Source of the DNA: a bacterium 210820-DFI.6.37
Lineage (GTDB): Bacteria > Bacillota > Clostridia > Peptostreptococcales > Anaerovoracaceae
NCBI GenBank assembly: GCA_020558355.1
Contig: JAJCKG010000014.1
Span: forward strand, 12,696-76,695
Reading direction: 5' to 3'
Length of the DNA stretch: 64,000 bases
Shown here: one piece after another, positions 27,594-41,185 of the stretch
How positions within the stretch are numbered: position 1 is the stretch's first letter
Layout: each line of letters opens with the position of its first letter
Notes under the pieces: model-generated
The model's database searches: none
Seen by the model: only the letters and a program-made list of their open reading frames with translations
What the model was told of the DNA's origin: nothing
Made by a program: the position numbers and the translations under genes

Positions 27594-27622
27594 TTGACCT
27601 TTATATGATAATAAATTATAAT
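27594..27622 (+). promoter_or_regulatory. Sigma-A promoter of the fatty acid operon
   Basis: TTGACC at 27594-27599 and a perfect TATAAT at 27617-27622, 17-base spacer. The rest of the 27405-27678 gap holds only this promoter, the palindrome downstream of it and the ABC-F leader. Confidence 0.88.
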
Positions 27623-27629
27623 ATAATAA

Positions 27630-27652
27630 AATAGTTTGATTATCAAACTATT
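27630..27652. promoter_or_regulatory. FabT-like palindromic operator
   Basis: A perfect inverted repeat with 11-base arms around one central T (core TTTGATTATCAAA). This matches the known FabT box of lactic acid bacteria. It lies seven bases downstream of the -10 box, across the transcription start, an ideal repressor position. The MarR-type fusion protein encoded at the end of the operon is the likely binder. Confidence 0.8.
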
Positions 27653-27660
27653 AATTGATT

Positions 27661-27822
27661 ACAGATCCGCTTAAAGGGATGAGGGCCAATGTTTCATTAG
27701 TCAGTATTCCAATGGCATTGTATGATCTTGCGAAAACTGGTAAAATAAGAAAAGGTGATAAAATAGCTGTTATGGGATTTGGCGGCGGGCCGCACGCGGC
27801 GGCCGCAATTATACAGTGGTAA
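27661..27822 (+). pseudogene. fabH C-terminal remnant
   Basis: The frame reads ANVSLVSIPMALYDLAKTG, then KKGDK-like RKGDKIAVMGFGGGPH and ends AAAAIIQW. This is the last part of beta-ketoacyl-ACP synthase III (family pattern NTSAAS..IPxAL and KGDxxLxxGFGxGLTW). The remaining 270 or so residues, including the catalytic Cys and His, are missing, and no good RBS precedes the ATG at 27679. It sits where fabH stands in FabT-type operons. A working fabH must be elsewhere. Confidence 0.7.
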
Positions 27823-27840: not shown

Positions 27841-28806
27841 ATGGTAAATGTATGCGAAATTTTAGGGACCAGGTACCCGATCATCCAGGGAGCAATGGCA
27901 AGAATCGCGGAATGCAACCTTGCCGCGGCTGTCAGCAACGGAGGCGGACTGGGGATCATCGCGGCAGGCGGAGAATCCGCGGACTGGCTGAGAGATCAGA
28001 TTAAAAAGACGAGAGAAATGACAGATAAGCCTTTCGGTGTCAACATTATGCTGCTGGCGCCAAACGTAGATGAGCTTATTGAGGTGGTTTGCCAGGAAAA
28101 GGTTCCGGTAGTAACCACCGGAGCCGGAAACCCGGGAAAATATATCGCGAAAATGAAAGAATGCGGCATCAAGGTGGTACCGGTTATTGCCAATGTAGCG
28201 CTGGCTATCCGCGTTGAGCGGGCCGGAGCGGACGCCGTTATAGCGGAGGGAACCGAGGCGGGAGGACATATCGGAGAAACGACAACCATGGCTCTGGTTC
28301 CTCAGATCGCGGACGCGGTAAAGATTCCGGTTATCGCGGCAGGCGGGATCGCGGACGGAAGAGGCGTCGCGGCGGCTTTTATGCTGGGAGCTAAAGGCGT
28401 GCAGGTAGGGACCAGGTTCCTGGTAGCCAATGAATGCATCGTAGCCCAAGGCTATAAGGACGCGATTATAAAGGCGAAGGATTCTTCCACAGTAGCTACG
28501 GGCCGGAGCACAGGCCATCCGGTAAGAGTTATTAAAAACAAGCTGGCCAGAGAAATCCTCGCGCTGGAAAAGAAAAACGAAGATGTTGAAAAAATCAACG
28601 AGCTGTGTACCGGCACCTTGGCGGCGGCAGTCCGGGACGGAGACGCCGAGCATGGAAATATCATGTCCGGACAGATCGCGGGCATGGTTAAGAAAGAACA
28701 GCCGGCAGCGGAAATCATAGAAGAAATGTTTAAGGAGGCAGGAGAGATTTATGAAGATCGGAATCACATTTGCGGGACAGGGCGCTCAGTATCCAGGAAT
28801 GGGTAA
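27841..28806 (+). CDS. fabK: Enoyl-ACP reductase II, FMN-dependent FabK
   Basis: FabK reduces the double bond of enoyl-ACP in the last step of each fatty acid elongation cycle. The 321-residue TIM-barrel protein shows the N-terminal PIIQGAMARIAECNLAAAVS, the catalytic EGTEAGGHIGE with its histidine, and the FMN phosphate loop AAGGIADGRG plus GAKGVQVGTRF. The RBS is AGGAGG. The 3' end overlaps fabD by 56 bases, an unusually long overlap that implies coupled translation; the last 18 or so residues are off the usual family end. It confers the triclosan-insensitive type of reductase. Confidence 0.95.
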   Translation: MVNVCEILGTRYPIIQGAMARIAECNLAAAVSNGGGLGIIAAGGESADWLRDQIKKTREMTDKPFGVNIMLLAPNVDELIEVVCQEKVPVVTTGAGNPGKYIAKMKECGIKVVPVIANVALAIRVERAGADAVIAEGTEAGGHIGETTTMALVPQIADAVKIPVIAAGGIADGRGVAAAFMLGAKGVQVGTRFLVANECIVAQGYKDAIIKAKDSSTVATGRSTGHPVRVIKNKLAREILALEKKNEDVEKINELCTGTLAAAVRDGDAEHGNIMSGQIAGMVKKEQPAAEIIEEMFKEAGEIYEDRNHICGTGRSVSRNG

Positions 28807-29740
28807 GGACCTGTACGACCATTACGAATCAGCAAAAGAAATTTTTGACATGGCAGGGGACCAGGTGAAGGAATGGTGCTTTGAAGGAGACGAAGAGATC
28901 CTCAAGCAGACCCATGTGACACAGCCGTGTATTTATACAGTAACCATGGCGGCTTACAAAGCCTTTCTGGAAGCCCTGGAAAAGGAAGGTCTGAAGGACC
29001 AGGTGGAAATTATCGGCTACGCCGGCTTCAGCCTGGGGGAATACGCCGCGTTAACCGCGACAGGCGCCATTGACGCGATCAAAACCGGGATGGACATTGT
29101 CACAAAGAGAGGACAGCTGATGAACCAGGCGGGTCTTGGACCGGACGGACAGCCTATGGGAAAAATGGCCGCCGCTATGGGAAAGAGAGAGCCGATCCTG
29201 GAAGTCGTAGAAGAAGCCAGAGAAGACGGTATTCTGGAAGGCGTCAACTTTAACTCGCCGGCGCAGACAGTCGTTGCCGGTGACAAAGACGCGATTGCCC
29301 GTTTTGTAGACGCGGCAAAGGCAAAGAAAATCAGAGCGAAAGTCCTTCCTGTGGGAACTGCTTTTCACAGCCCGATGATGGTGCCGGCAGCAAAGGAACT
29401 GAAAAACGTCATCAAAGACGCGGGACTGAAAACACCTCAGGCGAAGATCTACGCCAACGTGACAGCGGAAGACATGATGAAAGACTTTGATGGAGGCGAT
29501 ATTACAGAATACCTGTCCGATATCATGTCAAGACAGGCTATGAGCCCGGTTTACTGGGAAGAAACGATTCGCCATTTTAAGAGAGATGGCGCGGATACGC
29601 TGATTGAGATCGGACCAGGCAAGACCCTGTCCGGCCTTGCCAAGAAAACAGATCCGGAATTGAACCGTTTTAATATCGAAAGCGCGGAGAGCCTGCGGGA
29701 AACCATCGAAGGCCTGAAAGCTCTGAAAAAAGGAGAATAA
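28751..29740 (+). CDS. fabD: Malonyl-CoA:ACP transacylase
   Basis: FabD loads malonyl groups onto acyl carrier protein. The 329-residue protein has the N-terminal FAGQGAQYPGMG, the nucleophile motif GFSLGEYAAL (the usual GHSxG His is Phe here, as it often varies in Clostridia) and the catalytic His in GTAFHSPMM. It is about 15-20 residues longer than E. coli FabD. The RBS GGAG lies within fabK. FabG begins one base after its stop. Confidence 0.95.
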   Translation: MKIGITFAGQGAQYPGMGKDLYDHYESAKEIFDMAGDQVKEWCFEGDEEILKQTHVTQPCIYTVTMAAYKAFLEALEKEGLKDQVEIIGYAGFSLGEYAALTATGAIDAIKTGMDIVTKRGQLMNQAGLGPDGQPMGKMAAAMGKREPILEVVEEAREDGILEGVNFNSPAQTVVAGDKDAIARFVDAAKAKKIRAKVLPVGTAFHSPMMVPAAKELKNVIKDAGLKTPQAKIYANVTAEDMMKDFDGGDITEYLSDIMSRQAMSPVYWEETIRHFKRDGADTLIEIGPGKTLSGLAKKTDPELNRFNIESAESLRETIEGLKALKKGE

Positions 29741-29741
29741 C

Positions 29742-30482
29742 ATGCTAAAGGGAAAATCAGCCATTATTACCGGAGGTGTCCGGGGGATCGGAAAAGCCAT
29801 TGCGAAGGAGTTCTGTGAAAACGGAGCGGATGTGCTGCTGTGCTACAGAAGTAATGATGAACAGGCTAAGAAGACGGCCGAGGAACTGGGACAGTACGGA
29901 ACAAAGGTAGAACTGCTGAAGGGAGATGTCGCTGACCCCGAGACAGCAAAAACTGCGGTGGCCAGGGCAAAAGAGCTGTTTGGAAAAGTAGATATCCTGG
30001 TGAATAACGCCGGTATCACAAGGGATAAACTGATTATGCGCATGTCCGATACGGACTTTACCGATGTAATCAATGCCAACCTGAACGGATCCTTCTATTT
30101 CCTCAGCGCGGCGGCAAAGGTTATGATCAAACAGAAGTCGGGACGCATTATCAACCTGTCTTCTGTAGCGGGAGTAAAAGGAAATCCGGGACAGGTTAAT
30201 TACAGCGCTTCCAAGGCGGGCGTCATGGGGATGACCATGTCAGCGGCAAAAGAGCTGGGAAGAAGAGGTATTACAGTTAACGCCATTGCTCCTGGATTCA
30301 TTGATACGGATATGACCGCGGTCATGACGGATGATCAGAAAGCGAAGATCGCGGAGGCCATTAGCGTGGGGAGGGTCGGAAAACCGGAGGATATTGCCAA
30401 GACAGCTTTATTTCTGGCTTCTGACAGCGCCTCCTACATTACAGGGCAGATCATCTGCGTAGATGGTGGATTGAATATGTAA
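29742..30482 (+). CDS. fabG: 3-oxoacyl-ACP reductase FabG
   Basis: This NADPH-dependent reductase makes the 3-hydroxyacyl-ACP. The 246-residue short-chain dehydrogenase has the cofactor motif TGGVRGIGKAIA, NNAG in VNNAGITRD, the catalytic Ser in INLSSVAG and the YSASK Tyr-Lys pair. The length is standard. Confidence 0.95.
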   Translation: MLKGKSAIITGGVRGIGKAIAKEFCENGADVLLCYRSNDEQAKKTAEELGQYGTKVELLKGDVADPETAKTAVARAKELFGKVDILVNNAGITRDKLIMRMSDTDFTDVINANLNGSFYFLSAAAKVMIKQKSGRIINLSSVAGVKGNPGQVNYSASKAGVMGMTMSAAKELGRRGITVNAIAPGFIDTDMTAVMTDDQKAKIAEAISVGRVGKPEDIAKTALFLASDSASYITGQIICVDGGLNM

Positions 30483-30501: not shown

Positions 30502-31743
30502 ATGCAAAAGATGGAAAAGAGAGTCGTTATTACAGGACGGGGAGCAGTGACCCCTGTAGGAAATACAGTTGCCGACGCGTGGGCAAGCATCAAAGCCGGA
30601 AAACACGGCATTGCGGAAATCACCCACTTTGACGTTGAGCCTCATAAAGTTAAAATGGGAGCGGAAGTAAAAAACTTTGATTTTGGTGATAAAAGGGCGG
30701 CAAAGAGACTGGACCTTTCATCCCAGTACGCCCTGGTGGCGGCTGAAGAGGCGATGAAGGACTCCGGCATTGTCAGCGGCGAAAATGTAGAACCGGAGCG
30801 CTTTGGCGTTTTCGGCGGAACCGGAATCGGCGGCATTACAACACTGGAAAATGAGGTTACAAAGTGCCTGAAGAGAAACAGCCCCACAAGAGCGTCCGCT
30901 CTGCTGGTACCTATGGTAATGCCTAACGCGGTAGGCGGGAACCTGGCCATTAAATTCAACGCGAAAGGAACCTGCTTTGGTATCGTTTCCGCGTGCGCGT
31001 CCGGTACCCACAGCATCGGCGAAGCCTTCCGCAACATCAAGCACGGTTATTCCGATGTGCTGCTGGCAGGCTCCGCGGAGTGCGTCTTTACTTCCGTCTG
31101 CTTCTCAGGCTTTGCCAACATGACGGCCATGTCCACCAGAACAGACCCGTCCAGATGCTCCACTCCTTTTGACGTGGAACGGGATGGCTTTATTCTGGGT
31201 GAAGGCGCTGGCTTCCTCATTCTGGAAGAACTGGAGCACGCCCTTGAAAGAGGCGCGAAGATCTATGGGGAAATCGTAGGCTACGGCGCGACCTGTGACG
31301 CTTACCACATCACATCTCCTTCGCCGGACGGAGAAGGCGCGGCCAACGCCATGGCCCTTGCTATTGAAGAGGCAGGCATTGCGCCGGATCAGATCGATTA
31401 TATCAATGCCCATGGAACAGGAACTCCATACAATGACCTGTTTGAGACTAACGCAATCAAAGCTGTATTCGGAGACGACACAAAGGTTCCAGTAAGCTCC
31501 ACTAAGAGCATGACCGGCCACCTGCTGGGAGCGGCCGGCGGCATCGAAAGCGTGTTCTGCGTGGAAGCCATTAACGACAGCTTCATTCCTGCTACCATCG
31601 GACTTGAAAAGCCGGATCCGGAGCTGACACTGGACTATGTTCCAAATCAGGGAAGAGACGCGGAGCTGACCTATGTCCTCAGTAACTCTCTGGGATTTGG
31701 CGGACATAACGGAAGTCTGGTCATTAAGAAGTATGAAAAATAG
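30502..31743 (+). CDS. fabF: 3-oxoacyl-ACP synthase II FabF
   Basis: FabF elongates acyl-ACP by condensation with malonyl-ACP. The 413-residue protein has the Cys-His-His triad in VSACASGTHSIG, NAHGTGTPYND and KSMTGHLLGAAGG. Two starts are possible: 30502, close behind AAGGAAG, or the ATG at 30511, which gives MEKRVVITG as in most homologues and a longer RBS distance. Confidence 0.95.
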   Translation: MQKMEKRVVITGRGAVTPVGNTVADAWASIKAGKHGIAEITHFDVEPHKVKMGAEVKNFDFGDKRAAKRLDLSSQYALVAAEEAMKDSGIVSGENVEPERFGVFGGTGIGGITTLENEVTKCLKRNSPTRASALLVPMVMPNAVGGNLAIKFNAKGTCFGIVSACASGTHSIGEAFRNIKHGYSDVLLAGSAECVFTSVCFSGFANMTAMSTRTDPSRCSTPFDVERDGFILGEGAGFLILEELEHALERGAKIYGEIVGYGATCDAYHITSPSPDGEGAANAMALAIEEAGIAPDQIDYINAHGTGTPYNDLFETNAIKAVFGDDTKVPVSSTKSMTGHLLGAAGGIESVFCVEAINDSFIPATIGLEKPDPELTLDYVPNQGRDAELTYVLSNSLGFGGHNGSLVIKKYEK

Positions 31744-31751
31744 GTGAACAC

Positions 31752-32177
31752 ATGTTATTGAATCAGGAACAGATCAAAGAAATTATCCCTCACAGAGAGC
31801 CCTTCCTCCTGGTAGACGAGGTTCTGGAAATGGAAGAGGGAAAATCCATTACCGCAATAAAATATGTAAAAGAAGAGGAATATTACTTTCAGGGACATTT
31901 CCCTGAGCGGAAAGTCATGCCGGGCGTCCTTCAGGTGGAAGCGCTGGCTCAGGCCGGCGCTATCGCGGTGCTGTCTATGCCGGAAAACAGAGGAAAGCTG
32001 GCCTTCTTCGGCTCGATTAAAGAAGCGAAATTCAAACAGCAGGTGGTTCCGGGAGATACCCTGACGCTGAAGGTGAAATTTGAAAAGCTTAGGAGCCGGG
32101 CCGGCACCGGAAAGGCTGAGGCTTATGTAGGAGACAAGCTGGCCTGCCGCTGCGAGATCATGTTTATGTTCGAATAA
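31752..32177 (+). CDS. fabZ: 3-hydroxyacyl-ACP dehydratase FabZ
   Basis: FabZ removes water from 3-hydroxyacyl-ACP to give the substrate of FabK. The 141-residue hot-dog-fold protein has IPHREPFLLVDEVLE, the catalytic His in GHFPERKVMPGVLQVEALAQ (Glu in VEALAQ) and a typical length. It starts eight bases after fabF. No acpP, accB, accC, accD or accA gene is in the operon. Confidence 0.96.
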   Translation: MLLNQEQIKEIIPHREPFLLVDEVLEMEEGKSITAIKYVKEEEYYFQGHFPERKVMPGVLQVEALAQAGAIAVLSMPENRGKLAFFGSIKEAKFKQQVVPGDTLTLKVKFEKLRSRAGTGKAEAYVGDKLACRCEIMFMFE

Positions 32178-32190
32178 GGAGCGTAAAACG

Positions 32191-33639
32191 GTGGATAATG
32201 TTCGAAAAATCAATGATATTCTGGTGAATCTTTTCAACGTGGTCCTGAAGCTGGAAGAAAAGGCGATAAAGGAATCCACCAACAGAGATCTGTCCATCAC
32301 AGAATTGCATACCCTGGCAGCCATCGGACAGGGACGACCAAAGACCATGAGTCAGGTGGCTGCCTCCCTGAAAATCAGCGTCAGCACCTTGACCGCGGCA
32401 GTTAACAAGCTGGTCAAAAAAGGTTATGTGGACCGTTTTCGTATTCCGGAGGACAGAAGGATCGTCAAAATAAGACTGACCGATACAGGGGCCGCGGCTG
32501 TGCGGGAGCATGAGGCTTTTCATATGGCTATGATTTCAGACGCTATTTCTCAGGTCCCGGAGGATCAGATCGGAAAATTTATCGAATCCATTGACAACAT
32601 AAATGAGTACCTTCTGATGCGAAAGCACCCTCCGGCAAAAGACCCGGGGCCTTTTTCCATGAAACCTCTGGAGCTGGGAAAGGTTCATGTTCCAGTGCCT
32701 CTTTTCCAGGGGGCCCTCAGTATTGGCCTGTCCATGAGCAGGCTGGCGGCAGCTGTAGCAAGAGAAGGCGGCGTAGGGGTAATTGCCGCTTCCAAGATCG
32801 GGTTCAGAGAGGCGGATTTTTCCGAAAACCCTCTGGAAGCCAACAAGCGGGCCCTTCGAAGGGAGATCAGAAAAGCGCTGGAGCTGGCAGGCGATGGAAA
32901 AAGGGGACCGATAGGAGTCAATATTATGTGGTCGGCGAAGCACTGCAGCCAGTATGTAGAGACTGCTGTGGAAGCGGGAGCCGAAGTGATCGTGTGCGGA
33001 GGCGGGATACCGACCAATCTTCCGAAATACTGCCGAGACAAAAAAGTTGCTCTGCTGCCCATTGTTTCCTCAAAACGGGCGGCAAATATCATCATCCGCA
33101 ACTGGACGAAAAAATTTAACAGAACGCCGGACGGATTTATTTTTCAGGGACCTCTCGCGGGAGGGTATCTGGGAGTGAAGGAATCCAAAATGGAAACTGC
33201 CGCGGAAGAATTTTATAAAAATATCGCGGATATCAAGGGCGAGCTGGAGGATCTGGAAAACTGCCCGCTGATTGTATGCGGAGGAATCTATACCAGAGAG
33301 GACGCGGAAAAAGCCTTTGCTTACGGGGCGGATGGCTTTCAGCTGGGAACCCGCTTTGTGACCACCGAGGAGTGCGACGCCTGCGACGCCTATAAGAACG
33401 CGTATTTGAACTCAAAGGAAAAGGATGTTACAATTATTACAAGTCCGGAAGGCTTCCCGGGCCGGGTCATAAAGAATTCGTATGTTTCCCGGATCGGCGA
33501 GGATCCCAGGTGCATCACACAGGGCTTGATCAACGCGGCTTTGGGTGATCTGGATAACGGCCTGATTTTTTGCGGAAGTAAGGTGCAGAAGGCAAATAAA
33601 ATCGAGAAGGTGGCTGATATCTTCCGAGAATTTACTTAA
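32191..33639 (+). CDS. MarR/FabT-like repressor fused to an FMN nitronate-monooxygenase/FabK-like domain
   Basis: This 482-residue protein joins two domains in one frame. Residues 1-146 are a MarR winged helix (SITELHTLAAIG, the recognition helix MSQVAASLKISVSTLTAAVNK, the wing DRRIVKIRLTDTG). Residues 157-482 are a TIM barrel of the nitronate monooxygenase/FabK family, starting at what looks like an ancestral start, MKPLELGKV, with no RBS before it. FMN-binding features remain: CGGGIPTNLP, CGGIYTREDA and GADGFQLGTRFV. The motif AGGHxG, whose His is catalytic in FabK and nitronate monooxygenases, reads AGGYLG, so catalysis is probably lost or changed. The GTG start has AGGAG nine bases upstream. 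As the last gene of an operon that starts with a FabT-like operator, it probably senses a flavin, NAD(P)H or acyl signal and represses the operon. The domain calls are firm; the role is inference. Confidence 0.85.
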   Translation: MDNVRKINDILVNLFNVVLKLEEKAIKESTNRDLSITELHTLAAIGQGRPKTMSQVAASLKISVSTLTAAVNKLVKKGYVDRFRIPEDRRIVKIRLTDTGAAAVREHEAFHMAMISDAISQVPEDQIGKFIESIDNINEYLLMRKHPPAKDPGPFSMKPLELGKVHVPVPLFQGALSIGLSMSRLAAAVAREGGVGVIAASKIGFREADFSENPLEANKRALRREIRKALELAGDGKRGPIGVNIMWSAKHCSQYVETAVEAGAEVIVCGGGIPTNLPKYCRDKKVALLPIVSSKRAANIIIRNWTKKFNRTPDGFIFQGPLAGGYLGVKESKMETAAEEFYKNIADIKGELEDLENCPLIVCGGIYTREDAEKAFAYGADGFQLGTRFVTTEECDACDAYKNAYLNSKEKDVTIITSPEGFPGRVIKNSYVSRIGEDPRCITQGLINAALGDLDNGLIFCGSKVQKANKIEKVADIFREFT

Positions 33640-38147: not shown

Positions 38148-38187
38148 AAAGACCCTTTCCGTTATACGCGAAAGGGTCTTTGTTTTT
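38148..38187 (+). terminator. Intrinsic terminator in the leader (attenuator)
   Basis: A perfect 12-bp stem, AAAGACCCTTTC at 38148-38159 with its complement at 38170-38181, is followed by GTTTTT. It ends 50 bases before the ATG at 38237, so readthrough must be controlled. Confidence 0.9.
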
Positions 38188-38236
38188 CAGATTGTTACAC
38201 AGTTATAATAATGTTGTGAAATCGGAGGCAATTGTT

Positions 38237-41185
38237 ATGAATTTGAAGAAAATGACGTTGAACATCAACGGCGCGGACCGTATGTTCATCTGCGATCCGG
38301 AAAAAGACACACTGGCGTCTGTACTGCGCCGTCTGGGACTGACCGGTACAAAAGTTGGATGCGGCACTGGTGTGTGCGGAGCCTGCTCCGTTATTCTGGA
38401 TGGAAAAGTAATCCGTTCCTGCACAAGAAAAATCAAGAATGTAAAGGAATACAGCTCCGTTCTGACCATTGAAGGTATCGGTACTGTTCTCAACCCGCAT
38501 CCGCTCCAGTACGCGTGGGTACATCTGGGCGCTGTACAGTGCGGTTTCTGCGTTCCTGGTTTTATCGTTTCCGCTTACGGACTGCTGCAGGAAAATGATA
38601 ATCCGACAAGAGAAGAAGTCCGCGACTGGCTGCAGAAGCACAGAAATGTCTGCAGATGTACTGGTTACAAGCAGATTGTAGACGCTATTATGGAAGCTGC
38701 CGCTATCATGCGCGGAGAAAAGACTTTTGAAGATATTACATATGACTGGTCAAAGGATATCGGTAATTTCTACGGAAAACCGCTGATCCGGCCGAACGCT
38801 ATGCCGAAAGCGTGCGGTGTATGCGACTACGGCGATGATATCGAGTTGCATATGCCGGCGGAAACACTCAAGGTTGAGCTGGTTCAGCCGAGAAAGTACA
38901 GCCATGCCAAGATCGTTAATATCGATTACAGCGAAGCTGAAAAGATGCCTGGCGTAGTAAAGGTTGTCACATATGAAGACGTTAAGGACGCCAACAAGCT
39001 GATGACTTACGCGTTCTCCGAAAGAACGGTTGAGCTGCAGCAGGCGCATCATATTCTGGCGGATGACAAGATCCTTTACTATGGTGATGTAGTAGCGCTG
39101 GTATGCGCCGACACCAGAGAACACGCGAAGGCTGCCGCCGCTGCCGTAAAGGTAGAGCTGGAGCCGCTGCCTGAATATATGAATTATCTGGAAGCGGTTA
39201 CTCCTGACGCTGAAAAGATCCACGACTGGCTGCCTGATACTTATGGCGCCAATATCTATTCCGAGCTTCCTGTTCTCAAGGGAGACCATGAGAATGTTCC
39301 GGAACTGATCGAGGACGCGGCGTACTCTGTAGAGGGTTCCTTCTATTCATCCAGAGAACCGCATATGTCCATCGAAGGCGATGTTATGCAGGCGTACTAT
39401 GATGAAGACGATAACCTCTGCGTACACTGCAAGACAATGACTTTATACTTCGACAGAGACGATATGGCGGAAGCCATCGGTATCCCTGTTGAAAAACTGA
39501 GAGTAATCGAAAACCCTACAGGAGGATCCTTCGGATGGGCAATGAGCGCTCACACTTATTCCATGGTTGGTATCGCTACCAAGGTTACAGGCATGCCTTG
39601 TTCCCTGTCCATGGATTACGCGCAGTTTATGGCCGTGTCCGGTAAGCGTTCCCCGACTTACTTCAACGCGAAGCTTGCCTGTGATGAAAACGGTATGTTT
39701 GTAGCGGGTGAATTTGACGCGGGTCTTGACCATGGTCCGTTCTTTGAACTGGGTGATGACAAGCTGACCAAGATCTCCAGATTCATGTTCTACCCTTATT
39801 ACATGCCAAACGCGGTAGGCCTTTCAAGAGTAGCGGTTACAAACCACTCCTTCGGTACCGCGTACAGAGGCTACGGCGCTCCACAGGCGTTTACGGCGTC
39901 CGAAGCGCTGGTAGATATGCTGGCGGAAAAAGCTGGAATCGACCCATTCGAAATCAGATATAAGAATATTGCGAGACCGGGACAGGATAACCTGAACCAG
40001 TATCCATTCCTTCACTATCCAATGGAAGAAATGATGGATAAATTAAAGCCGCATTACGATGAAGCTGTTAAAGCGGCGGATGAATACAACGCTTCTTCCG
40101 ACGGCTCCATTAAGAAGGGCGTAGGTATCGCTTGGGGCGGATACAACGTAGGTCTGGGCGCAGTTGACGAAGCGCACGTTGCCATCGAACTGATGCCTGG
40201 TGACAGACCGAAGTTCAGAAAATACGACACATGGCAGGATCAGGGCCAGGGCGGCGACCAGGGTTCCCTCATCTGTACTCTGGAAGCGTTAAAGCCTTAC
40301 TTCCCAGAGGTTACACCGGATGATATCAAGCTGATCCAGACAGACAGCAAATACTGCCCGAACACTGGTGAATCAGCAGGTTCCAGATCCCACTACGCAA
40401 ACGGTAAAGCAAGTATCGTAGCGGCTAAGAATATCGCGGACGCTATGAGAAAGCCTGACGGAACTTACAGAACCTATGATGAAATGGTTGCGGAAGGAAT
40501 CCCGACTAGATATGACGGAGACTGGGCAACTGTTGACGAATACGATTACTTCTACGATCTTGACCCGAACGATGGAAGCGGCAACCCGACTTACACTTAC
40601 ACATACGCTCTCTTCCTGGCAGAGGTTGATGTAGAAGTGGCGACAGGTAAGACAACATGTACAGGAATGACCTGCGTATACTGGATCGGTAAACCTGGTA
40701 ACATTCAGGCGGTAGAAGGCCAGATCAACGGCGGTATTTCACACGCGATCGGATTTGCGTTAAGTGAAGATTATGATGATCTGAAGAAGCATTCCAATAT
40801 GTTCGGCGCGGGCGTGCCTTACATTAAGGATGTTCCTGATAAGCTCGTTTCTATCGATGTTGGCGGACATGACCCAAGAGGTCCATTCGGTTCCTCCGGA
40901 GCGTCCGAAGCGTTCCAGTCCTCCGACCATATGGCGGTAATCAACGCGATCAACAACGCGGTAGGCGTAAGAATTTACGAGATCCCGGCAACTCCTGCCA
41001 AGGTTAAAGCAGGTATCGACGCTCTCGCTAAGGGTGAACCGAACCCGAACAAGCCTGAGCCTTACTTCCTGGGATCCGACCTGTACGACGCGATTGAAGA
41101 TATTAAGAACAACCCGCTTACTCCTTCCAAGCCTGAGAATCTGGAAATGGGTTCCCTTGGTAAAGAAGGCATCCAGTGGAAATAA
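38237..41185 (+). CDS. Molybdopterin-dependent aldehyde oxidoreductase (Mop / xanthine oxidase family)
   Basis: The 982-residue protein aligns by eye with Desulfovibrio gigas Mop over its whole length. It has the plant-type [2Fe-2S] domain (VGCGTGVCGACSVILDG), the helical [2Fe-2S] domain (QCGFCVPGFIVSA, RNVCRCTGYK) and the large cofactor domain (NPTGGSFGWAMS, AYRGYGAPQAF, catalytic Glu in SSGASEAF). Such enzymes oxidise aldehydes to acids with water and pass electrons through the clusters, with no FAD domain. The start at 38237 has GGAGG; the longer frame begins inside the leader terminator. It is followed by a large dicluster flavoprotein, which could take the electrons. The substrate is not clear; purines or other N-heterocycles are possible too. 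Confidence 0.93.
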   Translation: MNLKKMTLNINGADRMFICDPEKDTLASVLRRLGLTGTKVGCGTGVCGACSVILDGKVIRSCTRKIKNVKEYSSVLTIEGIGTVLNPHPLQYAWVHLGAVQCGFCVPGFIVSAYGLLQENDNPTREEVRDWLQKHRNVCRCTGYKQIVDAIMEAAAIMRGEKTFEDITYDWSKDIGNFYGKPLIRPNAMPKACGVCDYGDDIELHMPAETLKVELVQPRKYSHAKIVNIDYSEAEKMPGVVKVVTYEDVKDANKLMTYAFSERTVELQQAHHILADDKILYYGDVVALVCADTREHAKAAAAAVKVELEPLPEYMNYLEAVTPDAEKIHDWLPDTYGANIYSELPVLKGDHENVPELIEDAAYSVEGSFYSSREPHMSIEGDVMQAYYDEDDNLCVHCKTMTLYFDRDDMAEAIGIPVEKLRVIENPTGGSFGWAMSAHTYSMVGIATKVTGMPCSLSMDYAQFMAVSGKRSPTYFNAKLACDENGMFVAGEFDAGLDHGPFFELGDDKLTKISRFMFYPYYMPNAVGLSRVAVTNHSFGTAYRGYGAPQAFTASEALVDMLAEKAGIDPFEIRYKNIARPGQDNLNQYPFLHYPMEEMMDKLKPHYDEAVKAADEYNASSDGSIKKGVGIAWGGYNVGLGAVDEAHVAIELMPGDRPKFRKYDTWQDQGQGGDQGSLICTLEALKPYFPEVTPDDIKLIQTDSKYCPNTGESAGSRSHYANGKASIVAAKNIADAMRKPDGTYRTYDEMVAEGIPTRYDGDWATVDEYDYFYDLDPNDGSGNPTYTYTYALFLAEVDVEVATGKTTCTGMTCVYWIGKPGNIQAVEGQINGGISHAIGFALSEDYDDLKKHSNMFGAGVPYIKDVPDKLVSIDVGGHDPRGPFGSSGASEAFQSSDHMAVINAINNAVGVRIYEIPATPAKVKAGIDALAKGEPNPNKPEPYFLGSDLYDAIEDIKNNPLTPSKPENLEMGSLGKEGIQWK

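Follow-up and report, generated by a model that had tools for sequence, protein, structure and literature searches.

A candidate FabT-type repressor of a clostridial fab operon, fused to a probable FabX-derived pseudoenzyme

The last gene of a fatty acid synthesis (fab) operon in the DNA analysed here, a 64,000-nucleotide stretch of contig JAJCKG010000014.1 (the window), encodes a winged-helix repressor domain and a flavoenzyme-type barrel in one protein. A preliminary description of the sequence had proposed a MarR/FabT-like repressor of the operon whose nitronate monooxygenase/FabK-like barrel had lost its catalytic His and become a sensor. The gene order is fabK-fabD-fabG-fabF-fabZ, with the fused gene last and an addB-like gene next. 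Coordinates are given in Table 1.

Table 1. Features of the fab operon and of the fused gene (window positions).
Feature	Coordinates	Strand	Remarks
Promoter-like TTGACC-17-TATAAT of the fab operon	27594..27622	+	11/12 consensus positions
Candidate FabT-type operator, perfect 11+1+11 palindrome AATAGTTTGATTATCAAACTATT	27630..27652	.	
fabH remnant, last 45 codons + stop	27685..27822	+	
fabK, first intact gene of the operon	27841..28806	+	TIGR03151 464.2 bits, over cut-off 453.1
fabD-like	28751..29740	+	216.5 bits, below cut-off 260.9
fabG	29742..30482	+	
fabF	30502..31743	+	
fabZ	31752..32177	+	separated from the fused gene by 13 bases
Fused FabT-like/FabX-like protein, 482 aa, GTG start	32191..33639	+	one continuous frame
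MarR/FabT-like winged-helix domain, aa 1-146	32191..32628	+	
Apparently FabX-derived barrel, aa 156-482, probable pseudoenzyme	32656..33636	+	
Basic helix (model aa 295-309, and R311), counterpart of the FabX ACP-docking helix (R296, R303, K308)	33073..33123	+	
Tyr326 codon, at the place of FabX catalytic His182	33166..33168	+	
Site of the lost [4Fe-4S] loop, aa 438-441	33502..33513	+	

The fusion of a MarR domain with a flavoenzyme barrel, as first described, is real. The single 482-residue frame, whose GTG start is preceded by AAGGAG, recurs in other contigs and genomes, so that a frameshift or misassembly was ruled out as its cause. Both halves scored above the Pfam cut-offs, MarR at residues 34-92 and the NMO superfamily (PF03060) at residues 164-443, the latter with 126.8 bits against a gathering score of 28. 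The best NCBIfam match of the fused protein was FabT (NF050133) at residues 8-141, with 123.1 bits, which is below the equivalog cut-off of 200 bits. The MarR half matched the FabT of Streptococcus pneumoniae (6jbx) with an E value of 3.6e-26, compared with 1.5e-9 for the next chain. The barrel was modelled with a mean pLDDT of 88.5.

Helicobacter pylori FabX was both the top fold match and the best sequence match of the barrel, and its nearest solved relative. FabK and nitronate monooxygenase were considered as the nearest family and rejected, FabX being ahead in sequence and in fold; the FabK equivalog model TIGR03151 gave the fused protein 104.3 of the 453.1 bits at its cut-off, and the fold score of FabK was lower than that of FabX. 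Judged from these comparisons, the ancestor of the barrel is a FabX-type enzyme, and the NMO/FabK-like ancestry given in the preliminary description was not borne out. FabX, which acts on decanoyl-ACP, is a dehydrogenase/isomerase with FMN and a [4Fe-4S] cluster that serves unsaturated fatty acid synthesis. The reported loss of the catalytic His was confirmed, since Tyr326 stands at the place of FabX H182, and of the four Cys ligands of the [4Fe-4S] cluster one is left (Cys441). Ser418 is kept at the place of S273, the residue that holds the His in FabX (PMC8626469). The H182F and H182Q substitutions abolish FabX activity, with about 80% and about 28% of the FMN retained, respectively (PMC8626469), and Phe and Gln at this place also occur in natural fused proteins. 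The window protein is probably inactive as an enzyme. It may still bind FMN as a structural part, because its Tyr resembles the Phe of the inactive mutant that keeps about 80% of its FMN.

Likely control of this operon by the fused protein, a possibility raised in the preliminary description, is supported by the DNA upstream of fabK. The palindrome of Table 1 begins 7 bases past the -10 element of the promoter match and constitutes a FabT-type box at the fab promoter. Its 17-base core has 0 mismatches, where shuffled sequences predict 0.19 matches at up to 3 mismatches, and it differs at one position from the FabT consensus ANTTTGATTATCAAATT given in PMC10138225. Of nine fused operons whose upstream DNA could be read, eight (the window, L001, L003, L004, L006, L008, L142, and L143) have a FabT-type box when up to 1 mismatch in 12 core positions is allowed; none was found in the ninth, L005. 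The box lies before fabH in all six loci that have fabH at that place. In the window, the fabH remnant shares 82% identity with the end of the intact FabH that genome G130 carries at this position, and a search at E 0.01 gave no further FabH match in the window; either the strain has truly lost the rest of the gene or the assembly is at fault. The L005 and L008 loci likewise gave no FabH match, and in L008 the box is 45 bases upstream of fabK, so fabH may have left its place near the operator more than once. Elsewhere in the window, positions 38180-41185 encode a single 1001-residue protein in which 2Fe-2S domains are combined with molybdopterin-binding domains of the xanthine dehydrogenase type.

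The possibility, raised at the outset, that homologues never occur fused is contradicted, as both domains were present in 119 of the 120 best homologues (of 1866 at E <= 0.001, with the window's own record included); the exception, P0102, is a fragment. A genome scan, which was seeded with patterns from the fused alignment and covered the best 80 of 572 loci, contained eight fused loci (L001-L008), each located after a fabZ. A less biased check was provided by a sample of 148 genomes drawn from the larger family, with 24 fused genes and 31 standalone FabX-like hits; a second family draw covered almost the same genomes. In two genomes of the family, fabZ, marR, and fabX are separate neighbours in this order, with marR and fabX 54 bases apart in L141 and 104 in L132; those of L141 share a reading frame, with two stop codons between them. 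Trees were built from 117 and 57 representatives, the latter from barrels with the His and loop columns removed. In the 57-barrel tree, the fused proteins form one group (100/99, a bootstrap support of 100%) and L132 and L141 are sister to all of them (100/98); the 117-row tree also has one fusion origin, and the placement of L096, L097, and L098, which have long branches, is unsure. According to both trees, the fusion arose once. The alternative of two separate genes, which had been named as fatal to the proposal, does not hold for the window lineage and does hold for these two sister genomes. The same neighbours in the opposite order were observed in L025, L033, L035-L037, L047, L050, and L062, mostly Lachnospiraceae-type records, where a separate MarR gene comes immediately after a FabX-like gene that lies some 3 kb downstream of fabZ.

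The loss of catalytic parts was followed in 245 distinct rows, which remained of 264 after removal of the window's own row (P0002) and of 19 rows with the last 300 residues identical to those of another; the fragment P0102 and a FabK control are outside the following counts. All 102 standalone relatives have the His and at least four Cys. Among the 141 fused rows, both features are present in 84, neither in 52, Cys without His in five (P0024 with Tyr, L096 with Gln, L101 with Ile, L103 with Phe, and L104 with Leu), and His without the loop in none. The His is absent from 57 of the 141 rows, 52 of which also lack the loop. At its place the fused proteins have Tyr, Leu, Met, Gln, Thr, Phe, or Ile, and all 23 rows of the window's clade have Tyr. 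The His was probably lost before the Fe-S loop, because five fused rows keep the Cys without the His and none shows the reverse. Parsimony gave one loop loss and three (117-row tree) or four (57-barrel tree) changes of the His. In the family sample, all 30 standalone proteins examined were intact (30 of the 31 hits, the truncated G115 being left out), and the 24 fused proteins were divided into 12 intact and 12 without His. The confinement of the three or four His losses to fused lineages is suggestive only, because these lineages make up about 20 of 57 tree-length units, with the outgroup branch included. The many fused relatives with the His and four Cys are, from their conserved residues, probably repressor and enzyme in one. 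The fused protein of Anaerovorax odorimutans (L001) belongs to these.

A replacement for the lost activity was sought in the genomes with a His-less fusion. A second, intact FabX elsewhere was rejected, as no second match of FabX strength was found among the matches listed in 15 such genomes, several of which are metagenome-assembled. Twelve of the 15 had a weak second match among those listed (E about 2e-17 to 7e-22), located on the same contig, as expected of the operon's FabK; G134 and G006 had one FabX match only among those listed, and the second match of G014 was absent from the matches listed. A second FabA-like domain was found in two (G130 and G067) of seven His-less genomes searched and also in three of five His-bearing ones. 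Two close relatives have a second FabA/FabZ-like gene (L144, 7037-7534; L145, 5962-6399). One of these second genes lies within a 2-hydroxyacyl-CoA dehydratase/CoA-transferase cluster and the other next to a DeoC-like aldolase gene, and no FabT box was found near them within the fetched stretches. A FabN-like second dehydratase was rejected as a replacement on account of this unrelated neighbourhood, the absence of a box from the fetched stretches, and its presence in His-bearing genomes.

The retention of individual residues was assessed at 62 near-invariant barrel positions, defined by the same residue in at least 95% of standalone and at least 93% of His-bearing fused rows. Of these, 42 are kept by the majority in both loop-less groups and 20 are not. 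The switched sites comprise 10 of 16 FMN-contact or active-site positions versus 10 of 46 others (Fisher p 0.005), and in the window's clade alone 5 of 16 versus 4 of 46 (p 0.04); changes in this clade include G177S, G175A, M176L, and E319Q. The preliminary description had the FMN-binding loops as kept, but FMN contacts are among the most changed positions. Of the FabX FMN side-chain ligands N99, E175, Q240, and T243, three are retained in the window protein (N244, Q384, and T387) and E175 has become Gln319. In the 24 Tyr rows, N244 and G324 are each kept in 24, Q384 in 19, and position 387 is Thr in 18 and Ser in six; 23 rows have Ser in place of G177, and 23 have Gln in place of E319. The 24 loop-less Leu/Met rows have mostly lost three of these four ligands (N244 replaced in 22, E319 in 23, and Q384 in 23), together with G324 (23); T387 remains Thr in 21.

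The ACP-docking residues K152, K159, and R164 of FabX correspond to R296, R303, and K308 of the window protein and are kept basic. All 24 Tyr rows have Lys or Arg at each of these three positions, as do 28, 27, and 27, respectively, of the 28 other loop-less rows. Basic positions overall served as a control, and 11 of the 20 remain at least 90% basic in the loop-less group; at a level of at least 93%, all three mapped ACP contacts are counted versus 8 of 17 other positions, a difference that is not statistically separate. The retention of the helix is consistent with ACP binding and is no proof of it, because other basic positions are also widely kept. In three genes of the window's clade, pN was 0.10-0.13 against a pS of 0.70-0.74 for the barrel, and 0.06-0.11 against 0.66-0.82 for the MarR half; pS and pN alone were used, many pairs having a saturated dS. 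Purifying selection acts on both halves.

The reading that we consider moderately probable is that the window protein is an autogenous FabT-type repressor of the fab operon with a FabX-derived, acyl-ACP-binding pseudoenzyme half. PMC13046290 and PMC9083066 describe FabT as encoded within the operon that it represses, and acyl-ACP as its ligand, which strengthens operator binding in Lactobacillales. By analogy, the window protein would form a dimer through its MarR half and bind the palindrome at the operon promoter. Acyl-ACP would dock on the retained basic helix of the barrel (R296, R303, and K308), the acyl chain would enter the old tunnel of the former enzyme, and docking would alter the affinity for the operator, most likely upwards, as acyl-ACP does for FabT. 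Plentiful acyl-ACP would then shut off fabKDGFZ and the gene of the regulator itself. The sensor-like fate first suggested for the barrel is supported as a reading of the sequence, with enzyme parts lost and purifying selection persisting. Several observations count against this reading. The barrel need not be where the signal is sensed, given that the FabT of S. pneumoniae, which has none, is acyl-ACP-responsive, and the FabT equivalog cut-off was not reached (123.1 of 200 bits). Two FabX ACP contacts are changed or loose: R160 is Asn304 in the window protein and is also non-basic in most relatives, and position 131 varies. The phosphopantetheine contact Y277 is Phe422 (Met or Leu in standalone relatives), and the place of S149 is Ala in 9 of the 24 Tyr rows. 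The FMN ligands N244 and Q384 persist in the Tyr rows, where flavin sensing is conceivable.

These ligands, with G324 and T387, speak for a barrel that holds FMN without turnover and relays a flavin-redox or NAD(P)H signal to the MarR half; the roughly 80% FMN retained by FabX H182F (PMC8626469) points the same way. We regard this explanation as improbable. G177S, G175A, M176L, and E319Q have altered the site in the window's clade, and the Leu/Met rows have lost most of their ligands, yet fusion and purifying selection persist; NAD(P)H sensing is further disfavoured by the Fe-S domain of FabX, which is said to replace the NAD(P)H-binding motif of FabK (PMC8626469). A flavin-redox sensor is possible in the window's clade and unlikely where most FMN ligands are replaced. 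Of the signals first listed (FMN redox state, NAD(P)H, or acyl-ACP), we favour acyl-ACP, with a pseudoenzyme as its sensor, because the ACP-docking basic positions were kept while the FMN contacts drifted; FMN redox as a general signal is disfavoured.

The barrel could instead be a scaffold that dimerises the repressor or tethers it to ACP or the synthesis enzymes, the MarR half alone sensing the signal. The resemblance of that half to acyl-ACP-responsive FabT suits this explanation, as does the persistence, in the two loop-less groups alike, of 42 of the 62 near-invariant sites of the barrel, but we regard a mere scaffold as improbable: selection on the barrel nearly matches that on the MarR half (pN 0.104-0.130 versus 0.061-0.113), and a plain tether would not seem to require a whole barrel. 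Continued catalysis of an altered kind, such as an isomerase or reductase working through Tyr326 or by substrate assistance, is quite improbable. An intact predicted fold, purifying selection, Ser418, and the constant Tyr of the window's clade would fit it; the seven different residues at the His place across fused proteins, the inactivity of H182F and H182Q (PMC8626469), and the changed Fe-S loop and FMN contacts speak against it. That the gene is decaying or an artefact of assembly, as the neighbouring fabH remnant in this contig could suggest, is very improbable given the same frame in other contigs and genomes and a pN well under pS.

The standalone relatives bear on a separate question. 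As of 2009, Clostridia had no known enzyme dedicated to unsaturated fatty acids, and the existence of a novel one was predicted (PMC2700279). A FabX homologue is reported from Fusobacterium nucleatum (PMC11091888), and a FabX expressed in Bacteroides is described as beneficial under ceftriaxone (PMC11300592). Among Clostridium and Lachnospiraceae records, FabX homologues with intact catalytic residues were found within fab operons, close to them, or directly behind FabT-type boxes. A box was present at 17 of 100 standalone fabX genes (up to 250 nt upstream or up to 30 nt into the gene), compared with about 0.01 per gene predicted from the box density over all loci; in 11 of the 17, eight of them in Clostridium-named records, it is 32-51 nt before the start. 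Ten standalone homologues directly behind a box retain the His and four Cys (L013, L027, L028, L029, L039 of C. folliculivorans, L042, L043, L054, L060, and L078 of C. sardiniense), eight of them in records named Clostridium. From their context, the standalone FabX near fab operons or boxes are candidates for the clostridial unsaturated fatty acid enzyme, a role for which FabX was not named in titles or abstracts of the open-licence literature among the matches listed. Because intact FabX genes adjoin fab operons or FabT-type boxes, expression tests can be aimed at named genes, which are now available as targets. A wider account, which we hold only tentatively, is that the intact fusions are repressor and unsaturated fatty acid enzyme together, switching between catalysis and DNA binding as PutA does; that the window protein is the end of a repeated conversion to an acyl-ACP sensor, in which the His was lost several times and then the loop; and that FabT-controlled standalone FabX makes the double bond in Clostridium. 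Living genomes hold a natural series, from neighbouring genes to intact fusion, to His lost with four Cys kept, to both lost, along which an enzyme of the pathway may have turned into the sensor of the repressor that controls it.

Regulators joined to, or derived from, metabolic enzymes that sense their pathway include PutA, BirA, NagC/ROK, and Gal80. To our knowledge, none of these joins a FabT/MarR repressor to a fatty acid dehydrogenase/isomerase, and a FabT-FabX fusion was not found in titles or abstracts of the open-licence literature among the matches listed. A homologue of FabX also occurs in Neisseria, which we take to be the protein named UfaA. The enoyl-ACP reductase FabK belongs to the same superfamily as the barrel, at a greater distance (TIGR03151, 104 bits versus a cut-off of 453, and a lower fold score). 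With FabX, for which the Neisseria homologue is cited in PMC11300592, the barrel shares the three basic ACP-docking positions and a KPLxxGK stretch at its start; unlike FabX, it has no catalytic His and no Fe-S loop, its FMN contacts are altered, and it is fused to a repressor. With FabT of S. pneumoniae (6jbx), the window protein shares the winged helix, the type of operator, and a gene within its own presumed target operon. FabT consists of the repressor alone (152 residues in the 6jbx chain) and is encoded by the first gene of its operon (PMC13046290), whereas the window protein is encoded by the last gene and has a barrel of 327 residues attached.
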